Shown here: positions 53,268-64,000 of the stretch, in pieces | Position numbering within the stretch: the stretch's first letter is position 1 | How the letters are laid out: each line of letters starts with the position of its first letter | Source: Pseudomonas sp. ACM7 | Lineage (GTDB): Bacteria; Pseudomonadota; Gammaproteobacteria; Pseudomonadales; Pseudomonadaceae | DNA length: 64,000 nt | Assembly: GCF_004136015.1 (NCBI RefSeq) | Contig: NZ_CP024866.1 | Location: 1,305,336 to 1,369,335 of the forward strand | Reading direction: 5' to 3' | The notes under the pieces: generated by a model | What the model saw: only the letters and a program-made list of their open reading frames with translations | The model's database searches: none | What the model was told of the DNA's origin: nothing | Position numbers and translations under genes: made by a program

Positions 53268-56200
53268 ATGAATGAAAGTGCGTTCAGCCCCCTGCCCGTC
53301 TCCCCGCCGGTCGTGATACCGGCCCATCCGCCCCTGAAAGATAACTCCGATGAAAGCCTGTTGCTGAGTGCCTCGGCGCGCTGGCGCGACAGCAGCCAGG
53401 GTTTGCAAGCGTTGTTCGCCGCCGCACCGTTGAGAAGCCACCGCACTGAACCATCGCTCAACGAACGCTGGAATGCCTATTGGGACGCCCGAGCACCCGG
53501 TACGCCGGTGGCGCGGCGCGAGCGGGCGGGTCAGTTGTACCGCAGTCATTTTGAGGCCGCCGCACAAGTGGCGTTCGCTCGCAGAACCCTCAGCGCCGAG
53601 CAGTTGAAGCCGCTGTTGTTGATCATGGACCCTCCCGCCTCGGGCCTGATCCTGGACAATCGGCCTATCCAGACAGAGCAGTTGACCCTGGTGTTGAGCG
53701 ACAGCGGTACCCTGAAACTCCCCGCCGCCTGGGTCATCAGCGTGGGTGATCGGCAACCCACCATGCAGTTGCTGTATCTACCTTGCCGGCCTGTTCCCAT
53801 TCAGGTCTTCACTCAGCGCAGCGACATGGAAGACTGGCTGTCGCGACAATCTCTCATCCCCCAAGGCCTGCCCGACGATAAAATCCGCTTTGAATACACG
53901 GCCAACACTCAACCGCTGAAGGCGGGCATCAGCGCTCTGCTTTTAAACCCACCGCATTCGAGCGCAACCTTTTTCGCCGTGCCACCCGGTCTTGATAACC
54001 CGATATCAATCGAAAGCATTGTCGATGAAGACGAACCACCGCCGTTCGGCAGCCTGTATGCCGATATTCCGTGGTCGCAGCGGCAGGTCTCGCTGAACAG
54101 GCAGCGCGATGCACTCGAAACGCTATTGGGGGATGAATTCGAAAGCGACCGTCAACAGCCATTCAAAGCGGCACTGAAGGCGCTGGAGACGGCAGAGCAA
54201 GTCGCCGACAAGGCCGCAACCGCCCTGCTTTACAGGTCGCGTATCTTCGACTTTACGACTATCAACCGTGAGTTCAGCGCGCTGTATCTGGCGCACATGG
54301 ATGGTCTGCGCGCCGAGGCCCAGCTCCAATTGGCCCTGAAACAGATCAGCAGCGACGAATTCAGCTTGCTTAAAGCAGTATTGGACACACCGCGTGCGGC
54401 CGATCGTGATGCCACTATCACCGCTGCCAGCCTGACACTGTCAATGACCGAGCATACCGGCAAAGTCACGACCCAGGCGCTCAACGGCCCTTTCGTCATC
54501 ACCCGGGCGCTGCTCGACGCCGCATCGCCACACAGCCTTTTGCTGTACTGGCCCGGCGCTGGCGGCGGCTTGCAACGGTTCGCCAACCGCACAGAGCTGG
54601 AGCGACAGATGTTCAAGATCCAGGACCGGGACAACGTTCTGGCCTTGCAGCTAAAAAAAATAAGTACCGACCCCCTGCTCTATAGTCTCAACAAACAGAC
54701 CACCGACTTTGAAGAGAAGGCAGGGGAAATACGTCAGCGCCAGACCGATACGACCAATCAACTGGAAGCACTGCGCAAGCACGCCCTCGCCGGTTTACAG
54801 GTCCCGGGGCATGCAGCCAGAAGCCTGGCGTTCTCGCACCTGTTGGAGCAAAACCGCAGTGCCACGCTGTACACCCGCAAGCCCGAATGGCTCACCCAAT
54901 TGTCTGTGGCCGACCGCGTTGAACTCAAGGCCCTGATCGAGTCGTACATTGTGGCGATGCGTCGCAGCCACACACAGCTGGAACTCGCCCTGACGCCTCG
55001 CGATGACTTCACCCGGCAACACTTACAGGCCCGCCTGCGAAAGGACTTTTCGATCCAGGGTCATTTTGACGTGCAACTTGACCTGCCGGATTCCGTCACT
55101 CTGCAAAAGCAACTGACCGACGGTGCCGCCCCGGGAACCCCGCAGAAACTCGTCGCGGTACCCAGCAAGGCACGCAGCAAGATGTCACTCGAAGAACTGG
55201 CCCAAACCAATATCGACAACACCCCGTCGATGCAGCTCGAGCCCCTGTCACTGCGACTGGACGCCATGCGCGTCGAAGTCACCGCAGCAGACACTGCCGA
55301 GCGTCAGGCGCTTGCCAACGGCATCACACTGCGCTACCTGCGCAAGACCCTGCCCGAGCTTGACCTGCCCAAAGCCTATGAACAGTTGATCCGCGACGCA
55401 TTCACCGGCTCGGCAACCGAATCTGCCTTCGCGAGGGAACACCTGCGCGAATGCCTGATCGAGCCCTGGCGCTTGATGCTCAAGTTGCAGGGGGAATCCG
55501 CGCGACTGCAGAAACAAATCAGCCACGACGAATTGCAGGTGTTGCTCATCGCCATCGACGCCAACACCCAGGAAGCCTGGCGCGCTGATCGCAAGCGCAT
55601 CGCGATTCTGCCGGCCTACCTGAGTGCCGGCGGAAAAGACACCCACAATCAAGGCCCCACCACGTTGTCCGGGGTGACCTTCATTGAAGAGCAAATCAGC
55701 GGGATGACGTTGCTCTATCTGCCCGACAGTCCCGACGGCCAGTTCCTGCGGAGCTACACCACCCTGGAATCGGCGCGCAAGGCGTTGTTCAACCTGTGTC
55801 TGCGTAGCGAAATGGTCAGTTACCTGGCGGGCCGGGCCTTGCAGGGTAATGTGCAGGCCCATACCAGTCGCATCGATCAGGCCGTGCTCAAACATTTCGA
55901 CGCCATGATCGGGGTGGGGCTGCCCTGGCCGAAAACAACGTCACTGGCGGAGCACCTGCTCAATGCCCATATGGGACGCCTGATCGAAGCGCATCGCGGA
56001 ACCTCCCGTTCCAACGATGCCTTGTACCTGGAGCGCTACGCGCTCAGTGGTCCGAGGGCGTTCAATTACATGAAGATGGCGTTGGGCGTGGTGCCCTTTG
56101 TCGGCACGGCCATCGCTTTATACGATGCCTGGACCAGTGCCAACCGGGCAGTCGCGGCACTATTGCGCGGTGAAGTCGGCGATGGGTTGGCGGAGATTGA

Positions 56201-58481
56201 ATCGGTACTGCTGTCATTGATCGATGCCGCCATGGACATTCTTCCAGGCGTTGCCGCAGGCTCCGGTTCAGCCAAGGGTGCTCGCTCACTGACACGGCTT
56301 CGTCAAACGGCAGCAATGGGCAAAAGCACGGGAGCGTTGCAAGGGCGCACAAAACGTCAAGCACAGCACGGTTTCCAGCGCTTCGCCGGTTACGATTACG
56401 AAAAGCCGATCTCCCTGACAGGCCTGCAACCAGCCACCCATGGCATTTACCGCAATATCTACCGTCACGCCGACGGCGACTTTATCGTTCGCCAGGGACG
56501 CATCTTTCAGGTTGAACGCAGCACGGATTCACGAAACTGGCGACTGAGCGGCACTCGTCAAAAAACCTATAAACAACCCATCGGCCTTGATGAAGCAGGG
56601 CGTTGGGACACTTACTTCGGTGTCTACGGGGTGACCTTCGAGGGCGGCGGGCTCGGCGGCGGCGGTGCGCTCGGGCATCTGGCGGATACCCTTGATCCGC
56701 TCTGGCCTGCCGCCATTCGCCAACGCCTGCCGCGATGGTGGGCCGATCAGGCTTTTCGCCGAAATCACGCACTGACCGAAGCGGCCGACGACTTTGCCCC
56801 GCAACTCGATACCCGGATTGCGCGTACCAACGCCGCCATTGAACAGTACAATGCCAGCGCCGTAGAGCACCGTCCGACACTGATACCGGCTACCGAAGCT
56901 GCGTGTATCGGCGACATTGAACTGGCCAGCAGACACTACCAGACACTGGTTGATCTGTTACCCCTGACCCATGGCAACAAAAGGCGCGTGCTCAGGGAAA
57001 TGCAGAGCCATGACGCCCTGCTGATCACTGATCGGTACAAGCAACGGGTGTTCTTGGCCAATCATCGGGCCGATCAGATGCTCGACAGGATCGACGATTT
57101 CATCGACCGTCTGGACGCACTGCCGGACACTGCGCTCAGCGAGCGCTTCCGTATTCTGCAAGACGTCAGAAAGGTGCGTGTGGATTTCATGCACGAGCTG
57201 GATCAAATCGAGGCCGCGATGCGCGATCTCAACCTGTGGTACGAGCGCATAACAGTCAGCACCCAAAAGGCACAACTGAGCTCCGAAGTCATGATGTTGA
57301 ACGGGCGGCTCAGCGAGACCAATCTGCTCTACTTGAGAACCGGCCACCGGCTGGAAATCGTCAAACGCTTTGACACAACCCAAGATATCTCCTGGTTCTA
57401 TCTGCAAGGACAGGCAGAGAATCTGCGGGCCAAAGTCGATCGCTCCTTGTTCACTCAATACAGCTTGCCGGAAGTCACCGCCACCAGAGCCCAGCGCAAT
57501 CAGATATTGCAGGAGTGCCTCGATCTTTACGGGCAGTTTCGCCGCAATATGAATGTCTGGACCACCAGCTACCCACAGCACTTCCATCTGCACACCGTGC
57601 CGCCCCTGCTGGAGGGTATCGAAAAAATGGCCGAACGGGCGCGCAAGGCCATCGATCAGCCGGCTCCCGCTTCCCCTGCCGGGCAACGCAGCAAAAAGGT
57701 GTTCACCACCGAAGACGATCAATTGCTGATTGGGGTGGAACGCTGGGAACCGACGACCCAAAAACGGCAATACTCCCTGACAGGACAGGGCGGATTCGAG
57801 GAGGTTTGGGAACAAGGTTCAAACGGCAAATTTCGCCTGCTGAACCCGCCGCAAAAGGCAACTCGCCCTGTTCAAAGGGACCTTGGCTCCCTGGTCGAAG
57901 ATGCCCGCAGCCGACTGCAATCGCAGCAGACGTACGAGGCCAAGGTTCAAGCCTATGCGGGTCAAGGCATGCTCCCGGTCGATCTGGAGCACATGATGGT
58001 CAGTGAGGCCAGCGAGTTGACCCGGCGCGCCCTTCCCATCGAGGAAATTGCTCCACAGCACACCATCATCCAGCAACTGCGCGACAAGGCCGCCGAACTC
58101 ACCACCCGCGGACGTGAAATGCGTACTCGGCAGTCGTTGAGTACCAAAAAACCTACCGATGGAATGCTCGACGACCTGGTCGGCCAACACGTCTTGGAGA
58201 TACGCAAAACGAGCCCAATGAAAAACCTGGGTAAACGCCCTGACGGTCGAATCGATTACCTGCAGGAGTACGAAGTATGGGATCTGACTGCAACACCTCC
58301 CAAGGTGCTGTGGTATGCCCATTTCCACTATGCCAAGGCAGCACCTGCATTCGGTGCATTCGAGAAGGCTCATCTAAAACTGCCGGAACACCGATTTCTG
58401 ACCCACGCCGACAACGCCGCGCTTCCCTATGCCGATATCGGCAAACAATCAGCAGCACTCAAACATTTCGATCAGGTTTAG
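53268..58481 (+). CDS. Giant dermonecrotic-toxin-domain-like (DUF6543-type) protein
   Basis: A 1737-residue protein in one intact frame. No signal peptide is seen. Three copies of an LLYLP-type motif followed by an F-rich helical segment (about residues 168, 425 and 815) mark repeated DUF6543-like modules. A central hydrophobic pair (about 932-955, YMKMALGVVPFVGTAIALYDAW, and about 975-1000) resembles the membrane-insertion region of large pore-forming or Mcf-like toxins. The C-terminal 450 residues are helical with a final domain (YLQEYEVWDLT...HFHYAKAAPAFGAF...HLKLPEHRF). No secretion, activator or immunity gene is adjacent. A role as toxin or effector is inferred from family naming. Confidence 0.75.
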   Translation: MNESAFSPLPVSPPVVIPAHPPLKDNSDESLLLSASARWRDSSQGLQALFAAAPLRSHRTEPSLNERWNAYWDARAPGTPVARRERAGQLYRSHFEAAAQVAFARRTLSAEQLKPLLLIMDPPASGLILDNRPIQTEQLTLVLSDSGTLKLPAAWVISVGDRQPTMQLLYLPCRPVPIQVFTQRSDMEDWLSRQSLIPQGLPDDKIRFEYTANTQPLKAGISALLLNPPHSSATFFAVPPGLDNPISIESIVDEDEPPPFGSLYADIPWSQRQVSLNRQRDALETLLGDEFESDRQQPFKAALKALETAEQVADKAATALLYRSRIFDFTTINREFSALYLAHMDGLRAEAQLQLALKQISSDEFSLLKAVLDTPRAADRDATITAASLTLSMTEHTGKVTTQALNGPFVITRALLDAASPHSLLLYWPGAGGGLQRFANRTELERQMFKIQDRDNVLALQLKKISTDPLLYSLNKQTTDFEEKAGEIRQRQTDTTNQLEALRKHALAGLQVPGHAARSLAFSHLLEQNRSATLYTRKPEWLTQLSVADRVELKALIESYIVAMRRSHTQLELALTPRDDFTRQHLQARLRKDFSIQGHFDVQLDLPDSVTLQKQLTDGAAPGTPQKLVAVPSKARSKMSLEELAQTNIDNTPSMQLEPLSLRLDAMRVEVTAADTAERQALANGITLRYLRKTLPELDLPKAYEQLIRDAFTGSATESAFAREHLRECLIEPWRLMLKLQGESARLQKQISHDELQVLLIAIDANTQEAWRADRKRIAILPAYLSAGGKDTHNQGPTTLSGVTFIEEQISGMTLLYLPDSPDGQFLRSYTTLESARKALFNLCLRSEMVSYLAGRALQGNVQAHTSRIDQAVLKHFDAMIGVGLPWPKTTSLAEHLLNAHMGRLIEAHRGTSRSNDALYLERYALSGPRAFNYMKMALGVVPFVGTAIALYDAWTSANRAVAALLRGEVGDGLAEIESVLLSLIDAAMDILPGVAAGSGSAKGARSLTRLRQTAAMGKSTGALQGRTKRQAQHGFQRFAGYDYEKPISLTGLQPATHGIYRNIYRHADGDFIVRQGRIFQVERSTDSRNWRLSGTRQKTYKQPIGLDEAGRWDTYFGVYGVTFEGGGLGGGGALGHLADTLDPLWPAAIRQRLPRWWADQAFRRNHALTEAADDFAPQLDTRIARTNAAIEQYNASAVEHRPTLIPATEAACIGDIELASRHYQTLVDLLPLTHGNKRRVLREMQSHDALLITDRYKQRVFLANHRADQMLDRIDDFIDRLDALPDTALSERFRILQDVRKVRVDFMHELDQIEAAMRDLNLWYERITVSTQKAQLSSEVMMLNGRLSETNLLYLRTGHRLEIVKRFDTTQDISWFYLQGQAENLRAKVDRSLFTQYSLPEVTATRAQRNQILQECLDLYGQFRRNMNVWTTSYPQHFHLHTVPPLLEGIEKMAERARKAIDQPAPASPAGQRSKKVFTTEDDQLLIGVERWEPTTQKRQYSLTGQGGFEEVWEQGSNGKFRLLNPPQKATRPVQRDLGSLVEDARSRLQSQQTYEAKVQAYAGQGMLPVDLEHMMVSEASELTRRALPIEEIAPQHTIIQQLRDKAAELTTRGREMRTRQSLSTKKPTDGMLDDLVGQHVLEIRKTSPMKNLGKRPDGRIDYLQEYEVWDLTATPPKVLWYAHFHYAKAAPAFGAFEKAHLKLPEHRFLTHADNAALPYADIGKQSAALKHFDQV

Positions 58482-63672: not shown

Positions 63673-63771
63673 TGTGGGAGCGGCGGTGCGGCGATCCGAC
63701 TTGCTCGCGAAGGCGGCGGGTCAGTCAACATCAATGTTGAATGAAAAACCGCTATCGCGAGCAAGCTCGCT
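63673..63771. repeat. REP doublet (family 1) with the right arm interrupted
   Basis: The left arm (TGTGGGAGCGGCGG..., degenerate) and most of the right arm (CGCGAGCAAGCTCGCT) are present, but the expected CCCACA after CTCGCT is missing and is replaced by TGTATGTTTAG. Compare the intact right arm at 33863-33884. The break falls right after CT, where the mobile element begins. Confidence 0.85.
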
Positions 63772-63789
63772 TGTATGTTTAGACTTGAA

Positions 63790-63950
63790 GGGGTGGGCGG
63801 GACTAAAAGCTCGATTCTGACTCTGACCAGTACAGACCGTGGGAGACTTCTCGTCCCGCCCTTTCTACCCAAAGCGCCGATAAGGAATTCATCGGTAAAA
63901 CCGACGATAGAGGCAAGCCAGCGCAACGGTAGACCCCGACAAGCTCTTAA
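63790..63950 (+). ncRNA. Probable bridge RNA of the IS110-like element
   Basis: GGGCGGGAC (63795-63803) pairs with GTCCCGCCC (63853-63861), closing a 49-nt loop. Inside are AAGCTCG (63807-63813), identical to the left target half, and GTGGGAG (63839-63845), complementary to the right target half CTCCCAC. Together they specify AAGCTCG-CTCCCAC, the REP site that was broken. A later ACAAG (63939-63943) could pair with the element's own CTTGT left junction as a donor guide; that part is tentative. Outer boundaries are estimates. Confidence 0.7.
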
Positions 63951-63972
63951 ACCCTAGCTCCGAGGATTCGTC

Positions 63973-64000
63973 ATGACAATCCTTACTTCGCAGACGGTTG
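63973..64000 (+). CDS. IS110-family transposase, first nine codons (partial)
   Basis: ATG at 63973 with GAGG about 7 bases upstream opens MTILTSQTV and runs off the window. The short N-terminus is like that of Pseudomonas IS110 transposases, which continue into a DEDD RuvC-like domain; that part is not visible here, so the identification leans on the upstream structure and the insertion site. Confidence 0.6.

Follow-up and report, generated by a model that had tools for sequence, protein, structure and literature searches.

How does an insertion sequence come to sit at one exact point inside a REP, and what in the element could specify that point? The question is raised at the right-hand edge of the window, by which we mean the whole stretch of 64,000 nucleotides that was analysed (G000:C1:1305336-1369335, from the 6.6 Mb genome of Pseudomonas sp. 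ACM7). There, the left end of an element starts with TGTATG at 63772, directly after ATCGCGAGCAAGCTCGCT (63754-63771). Very probably this is an insertion sequence of the IS110 group that works like IS621 and ISPpu10, with a bridge RNA that matches the REP. The case is built on sequence: the boundaries of the element, the broken REP and its empty counterpart, the agreement between guides and targets over the relatives, and the compensatory changes in the RNA structure. The features concerned are these:

63754-63771, plus strand: left half of the broken REP with the CT core, ATCGCGAGCAAGCTCG-CT (motif positions; intact orthologue in locus L213).
63772-63972, plus strand: non-coding left end of the IS110-group element, the proposed bridge RNA region (covariance model R1 matches 63772-63968, the element's own sequence being part of the model).
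63784-63787, plus strand: 5' side of the outer stem, CTTG, pairing with CAAG at 63940-63943 (all four pairs kept in 37 of 37 sequences).
63795-63803, plus strand: 5' side of the stem that closes the target loop, GGGCGGGAC (motif, folding, alignment).
63807-63813, plus strand: left target guide AAGCTCG, identical in letters to the target's top strand (motif; guide/target comparison).
63814-63815, plus strand: core-facing letters of the left guide, AT (CT in IS621; sequence and comparison across elements).
63816-63836, plus strand: apical hairpin of the target loop, TCTGACT...AGTACAGA (99.6% of cells paired).
63839-63845, plus strand: right target guide GTGGGAG, the reverse complement of CTCCCAC (motif; comparison of right ends).
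63853-63861, plus strand: 3' side of the closing stem, GTCCCGCCC (motif, folding, alignment).
63874-63924, plus strand: donor-type loop, GCGC at 63874-63877 with GCGC at 63921-63924 and an inner hairpin near 63890-63908 (folding, alignment).
63882-63888, plus strand: proposed left donor guide AAGGAAT (the left donor ends ATAGAAT, five of seven letters), read from the sequence, with a donor that varies little.
63913-63917, plus strand: proposed right donor guide GCAAG, complementary to CTTGT over the core and left end with one G-T pair, also read from the sequence.
63973-64000, plus strand: start of the recombinase gene, which continues in locus L031 with its interior behind 100 N (sequence past the window; domain and protein matches).

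Which REP was broken, and where? The original prediction named the REP at 63673, but this is the inverted partner of the pair, and the broken REP is the one at 63754-63771. Other copies had been expected to show REP flanks as well, and the three left ends of the genome (L031-L033) all have ATCGCGAGCAAGCTCGCT, i.e., AAGCTCG|CT, to their left. On the far side, the REP resumes as foreseen, with CTCCCACA after GAAT at all three right ends found in the genome: GCAACATAGAAT, then CTCCCACAGG, in L031; GAAT-CTCCCACATT in L033; and GAAT-CTCCCACAGG in L126, at 6.277 Mb. To find the empty site, 38 genomes were searched for the left flanking gene, and 21 matched, the own genome included; 11 loci of other genomes were compared, and the seven in which the right flanking gene is present were examined. 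Two of these seven have an intact REP pair: in L213 (G005) both flanking genes enclose one that ends TTCGCGAGCAGGCTCGCTCCCACAGGGG, and L217 (G010) is similar. No REP lies between the flanking genes in four of the seven (L214, L215, L219, L221), and L220 has REPs of another type there. There is one core CT in the empty site and there are two around the element, which fits the expectation for recombination at a CT core. That CTCCCAC might be sequence of the element itself was ruled out by its presence in the intact REPs of the genome and in the orthologous empty site. AAGCTCGCTCCCAC occurs 444 times in the genome (225 + 219), and the reversed control pattern does not occur at all.

An IS110-type transposase was expected downstream, and one is there. 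A start codon at 63973 (MTILTSQTVVGIDIAKAEIVIYRS) was read by eye, and the protein match there has no stops; past the window, L031 holds the gene start, exactly 100 N, and then the C-terminus of the recombinase. This readable C-terminal part matches Transposase_20 (E 3.1e-6), the DEDD domain being mostly behind the 100 N. The protein of a relative, P0001, has both the DEDD_Tnp_IS110 and the Transposase_20 domains, scores above the cut-off of the NCBIfam model "IS110 family RNA-guided transposase" and matches IS621 in the PDB (phmmer E 2.5e-18). Among the relatives, L035 has an open recombinase gene. About 29 bases separate the stop codon from the right end, and the guide region lies upstream of tnp, not in the right end, where the IS1111 group has its guide RNA.

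A protein search of the genome gave eight matches, of which three are left parts, three are right parts, and two are other IS110-like genes with 26-30% identity. Runs of exactly 100 N lie within insertion sequences at four places (G000:C1, starts 1369395, 3840930, 6123349 and 6276761). L032 has the left end and, beyond its 100 N, apparently another IS (by eye), while L126 has another IS (by eye) ahead of the 100 N and then the right end of the element. Because the left end and the right end are each joined to another IS, the two halves look swapped in scaffolding, and the scaffold may be misordered there. In the genome's own copies, 100 N mask the recombinase interior, and this, together with the two halves (L032, L126) joined over 100 N to an apparent other IS, would suit an element that is dead in this genome, its copies relics and its programming disused. 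We regard this as unlikely, though by no means negligible: where the ends of the gene can be read, they match relatives and contain no stops, and the identity of the three left ends across 229 bases suggests recent movement. A dead element would also be compatible with the main explanation of how the copies arrived.

What does the long non-coding left end contain? It has a conserved two-loop RNA structure, as is characteristic of the IS110 group, and the own sequence folds as an outer stem with a target arm and a donor arm (MFE -65.3), only moderately better than shuffled sequences (z -1.95, with 7 of 200 as good). The closing stem, 63795-63803 with 63853-63861, pairs as originally proposed, and the positions given for AAGCTCG and GTGGGAG were correct. 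The 49-nt loop has the extent that was claimed, but it is not a plain loop: TCTGACT at 63816-63822 pairs with AGTACAGA at 63829-63836, so that the loop is an internal one with a hairpin, and each of its two sides holds one guide. Both 7-mers in this order were found in none of 200,000 shuffles of the loop (approximate probability 1.5e-6). A second, donor-type loop follows downstream of the target loop; it contains GAAT and CAAG, which are compatible with the circle junction CATAGAAT-CT-TGTATG, the donor being nearly invariant in relatives. A promoter spanning that junction was also considered (weak hexamers at 17-base spacing, with -35 letters that score 2-4 of 6). It was given little weight, because the near-invariant left end dictates the -10 letters and the match at -35 is weak.

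The structure was compared over a MAFFT alignment of 37 non-redundant left ends out of 39 selected, from which L050 (degenerate) and L211 (distant) were dropped. With the structure taken from the own sequence, 88.6% of cells are paired. Helix 2 reaches only 83%, because one subgroup in the alignment pairs the closing stem in another register. Compensatory changes were found in 61 cells altered on both sides, compared to 24.9 after shuffling (0 of 500 as high) and 0-15 in slid versions, a comparison in which any structure derived from one member sequence tends to have an advantage by its origin. Further pair types did not exceed shuffles (333 of 500), and the covariation term of an RNAalifold consensus is small (-1.36), with 4 of 32 pairs altered on both sides. 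A covariance model built from relatives of the element (model R1) finds all ten left ends of distant relatives offered from outside its training set, at E 2.6e-28 to 1.6e-20, and matches neither the left end of IS621 nor the genome's two unrelated IS110-like genes. A scan with Rfam at gathering scores yielded no bridge RNA. Elsewhere in the window, Rfam matches a group II intron (RF02001) at 1-156 on the minus strand, cut by the window edge, and a Pseudomon-groES RNA; there is also a 1737-aa open reading frame at 53268-58481.

If the loop segments are guides, they should follow their targets from one element to another. The left end has matches in 83 of 398 genomes of the genus (E <= 0.001), a count in which at most two places were scored per genome and some matches are just 22-30 bases long, and among the named relatives, those closest to the element are from Pseudomonas. 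A DNA search of E. coli genomes with the left end gave no match at E 1e-5, and in plasmid (2255 records) and phage (22 records) collections the best places for P0001 were all below 60% identity. Relatives were taken from 30 loci of the genus search, 60 stretches and 80 named loci (the best 80 of 328 encoding a relative). With L031-L033, this makes 173 loci, of which 168 gave a left end (all but L050, L163, L204, L209 and L210), corresponding to 156 distinct elements when distinctness is judged by 40 flank bases and 60 left-end bases.

The left guide was compared, over seven letters, with the same number of letters to the left of the CT. Over the 156 elements, the mean agreement is 6.13 of 7, compared to 4.78 when the pairing is shuffled (0 of 10,000 as high), the shuffling treating elements as independent of kinship. 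All seven letters agree in 88 elements, six in 38, five in 14, and four or fewer in 16. Reduced to 54 distinct guide/target pairs, the agreement is 5.28 vs. 3.90 shuffled (0 of 10,000), and a smaller first parse of 76 elements gave 5.80 vs. 4.81. The target core is CT in all 156. The 16 low scorers include L046-L049 and L073-L075 (an extra letter), L095 (a probable tandem copy), L170 (a broken read) and some plain mismatches (e.g., L039 and L190); L205 and L207, which are misanchored and were kept among the 156, score 2 each, and 7 and 6 when read separately. In L046-L049 and L073-L075, the one extra left-guide letter shifts the register relative to the target, and the insertions still lie within REPs. 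As to tandem copies, L095/L200 includes a copy with CTCCCACATTTGGTAG-CT on both flanks, which suggests a tandem array of the element, and L062/L081 (G065:C45, 124208 and 125560) are two copies in the same direction, about 1.35 kb apart, both in AAGCTCG-CT.

The agreement extends to elements in other hosts. Eight elements lie outside the close clade and have a readable left flank (L209 and L210 end at a contig edge), and in these 49 of 56 letters agree, compared to a mean of 26.4 over all permutations. Only 2 of 40,320 permutations are as good, the second being a swap of two elements with the same guide. Guide and target are GAAGCCG/GAAGCCG in Natronospira, and AGCCTGG/AGCCTGG and AGTTGCG/AGTTGCG in Halomonas; the weakest three of the eight score 5. 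Relatives whose guides differ are, for the most part, inserted in different targets that match those guides.

On the right side, GTGGGAG stands opposite CTCCCAC in 116 of the 128 elements with a readable right end, and GTAGGAG stands opposite CTCCTAC in both elements that bear that guide and have a readable right end (L145, L202). Four of the 128 would have a G-T pair (GTGGGAG with CTCCTAC in two, with CTCTCAC in one and with TTCCCAC in one), and six, all from one strain, have an A-C mismatch (right guide GTGAGAG vs. CTCCCAC). These six copies (L121, L178, L187, L192, L196 and L199, from Pseudomonas sp. KNUC1026) are in AAGCCGCC-CT and have a matching left guide. The core-facing letters of the left guide are AT in 113 of the 156 elements, CA in 27, CT in 13, AG in 2 and AA in 1, the two AG counts being misread anchors that give CT when read separately. 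With AT or CA in 140 of 156, one of the two core bases is left unpaired by the left guide. The target guides thus match both targets around the core and covary with them, as in the IS110 group, and the bridge RNA layout that had been proposed is supported by the agreement of both guides with their targets in relatives and by the constant CT core.

Do the guides also choose among the REPs of a single genome? Five REP classes were counted in 34 genomes, targets outside these classes being treated as misses. Out of 66 insertions read, 7 with a shifted guide register were omitted, leaving 59 in 30 genomes. The class that best matches the guide was chosen in 45 of the 59, compared to 33.4 expected from the counts in the same genomes (simulated P 3.5e-5), and in 22 of 30 vs. 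17.0 expected when only one insertion was taken per genome (P 0.013); insertions within one genome, or in related genomes, are incompletely independent. The remaining 14 of 59 lie outside the best-matching class, and no insertion in the best class was seen in G366, G099 or G138 (0 of 2 each). G216 also had 0 of 2, yet the two targets there agree with the guide in 7 and 6 letters. In the own genome, the commonest counted class is AAGCCCG, with 656 sites vs. 444 for AAGCTCG, and all three copies are in AAGCTCG. As to the suggestion that every REP of the targeted family could serve as a target, not all REPs in the genome match the guide exactly, AAGCCCG being the case in point.

Could the recombinase instead recognise REP hairpins without any RNA guide, the guide-like letters being a coincidence or a relic of captured REP DNA? 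As unguided recognition would have it, REPs do hold most of the Pseudomonas copies read, and the right half hardly varies (CTCCCAC in 122 of the 128 elements with a readable right end). However, the guides follow their targets in Halomonas, Stutzerimonas and others, and within genomes the guide-matching class is chosen even where it is rare: in G253 (2 of 2 insertions, with the class making up 3% of counted REPs), G124 (2 of 2, 10%) and G282 (1 of 1, 7%), the cases that argue most strongly for guidance. REP capture in place of guidance was rejected: the right guide runs counter to the REP, being its reverse complement, which is not expected from capture in one orientation, and the guides in distant hosts follow other targets. 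Recognition without a guide is therefore very improbable. Least probable of all is that the left-end structure serves chiefly to regulate the mRNA of the recombinase, whether as a 5' untranslated structure or through an antisense RNA, and not to choose the target: the region does directly precede the gene, and a folded 5' UTR and two sRNAs are reported to control tnp in ISPpu9 (PMC8450116), but regulation alone does not account for two segments of the loop agreeing with the insertion site, and the regulatory and targeting roles do not exclude each other.

For a REP-matching bridge RNA, the series of events would be as follows. The left end would be transcribed into a bridge RNA with a target loop (guides AAGCTCG on the left and GTGGGAG on the right) and a donor loop, which the DEDD recombinase would bind and carry. 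Once a circle had formed, the recombinase would presumably catalyse the joining of the circle junction CATAGAAT-CT-TGTATG with the REP half-sites AAGCTCG-CT-CCCAC, and recombination would leave CT on both sides of the element, which may still be active at present.

Much of this has precedents. IS621 is reported to insert in E. coli REPs through a bridge RNA (PMC11208160, PMC11208158), and it shares with the present element a left end with the two loops of a bridge RNA, the CT core and the REP target (PMC11208160), as well as a homologous recombinase and, in our own reading of L225, a left end that starts TGTAT after CT. On the other hand, the recombinase is distant from that of IS621, as the PDB match indicates, and the left end is without a DNA match in E. 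coli genomes. The pairing rules also differ. The core of IS621 is stated to take part in all four guide pairings (PMC11208160), and its left guide includes CT (ATCGGGCCT), whereas here the core-facing letters are AT and the core dinucleotide is not fully part of the left-guide pairing; the right guide matches seven letters here and four in IS621 (PMC11208160).

The REP of P. putida KT2440 differs in sequence from the one considered here. ISPpu10 and ISPpu9 from that strain are likewise IS110-family elements described as inserting in REPs at one fixed point with a 2-bp repeat (PMC1525189), and a predicted bridge RNA with guides is shown for ISPpu10 in an extended figure (PMC11208160). Insertion in Pseudomonas REPs is reported for ISPpu9, ISPpu10 and ISPa11 (PMC1525189, PMC8450116, PMC11187229). 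In ISPa11, an IS1111-family element of P. aeruginosa, the REP target is likewise described as being chosen by an RNA from a non-coding region, which is placed downstream of tnp (PMC11187229), not upstream as here. Covariation of guide and target over thousands of natural IS110 pairs has also been reported (PMC11208160). Since IS621, ISPpu9, ISPpu10 and ISPa11 are already published, it is well supported that the element is a further example of the known bridge-RNA elements, with IS621 and ISPpu10 as precedents. Two details are less usual: full pairing between the left guide and the CT core is rare, and the guides follow host REP variants. Searches of open-access papers, preprints and most subscription papers apart, brought up no title or abstract that describes guides tracking REP classes inside genomes.

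What does this mean for the family? On an evenly balanced judgement, the bridge RNAs of this clade may have been reprogrammed repeatedly in nature, the left guides tracking host REP variants and choosing among REP classes within a genome, under a relaxed core rule by which the left guide mostly misses one core base and the 7-letter right guide carries the core pairing. The clade offers a natural series of guide/target pairs for RNA-guided recombinases: each genome has hundreds of possible sites, and the choice made among REP classes that are nearly identical can be measured. The tolerance of mismatches and the rule of core pairing can thereby be read from nature, and the clade is a source of recombinases distant from IS621 in Pseudomonas hosts.
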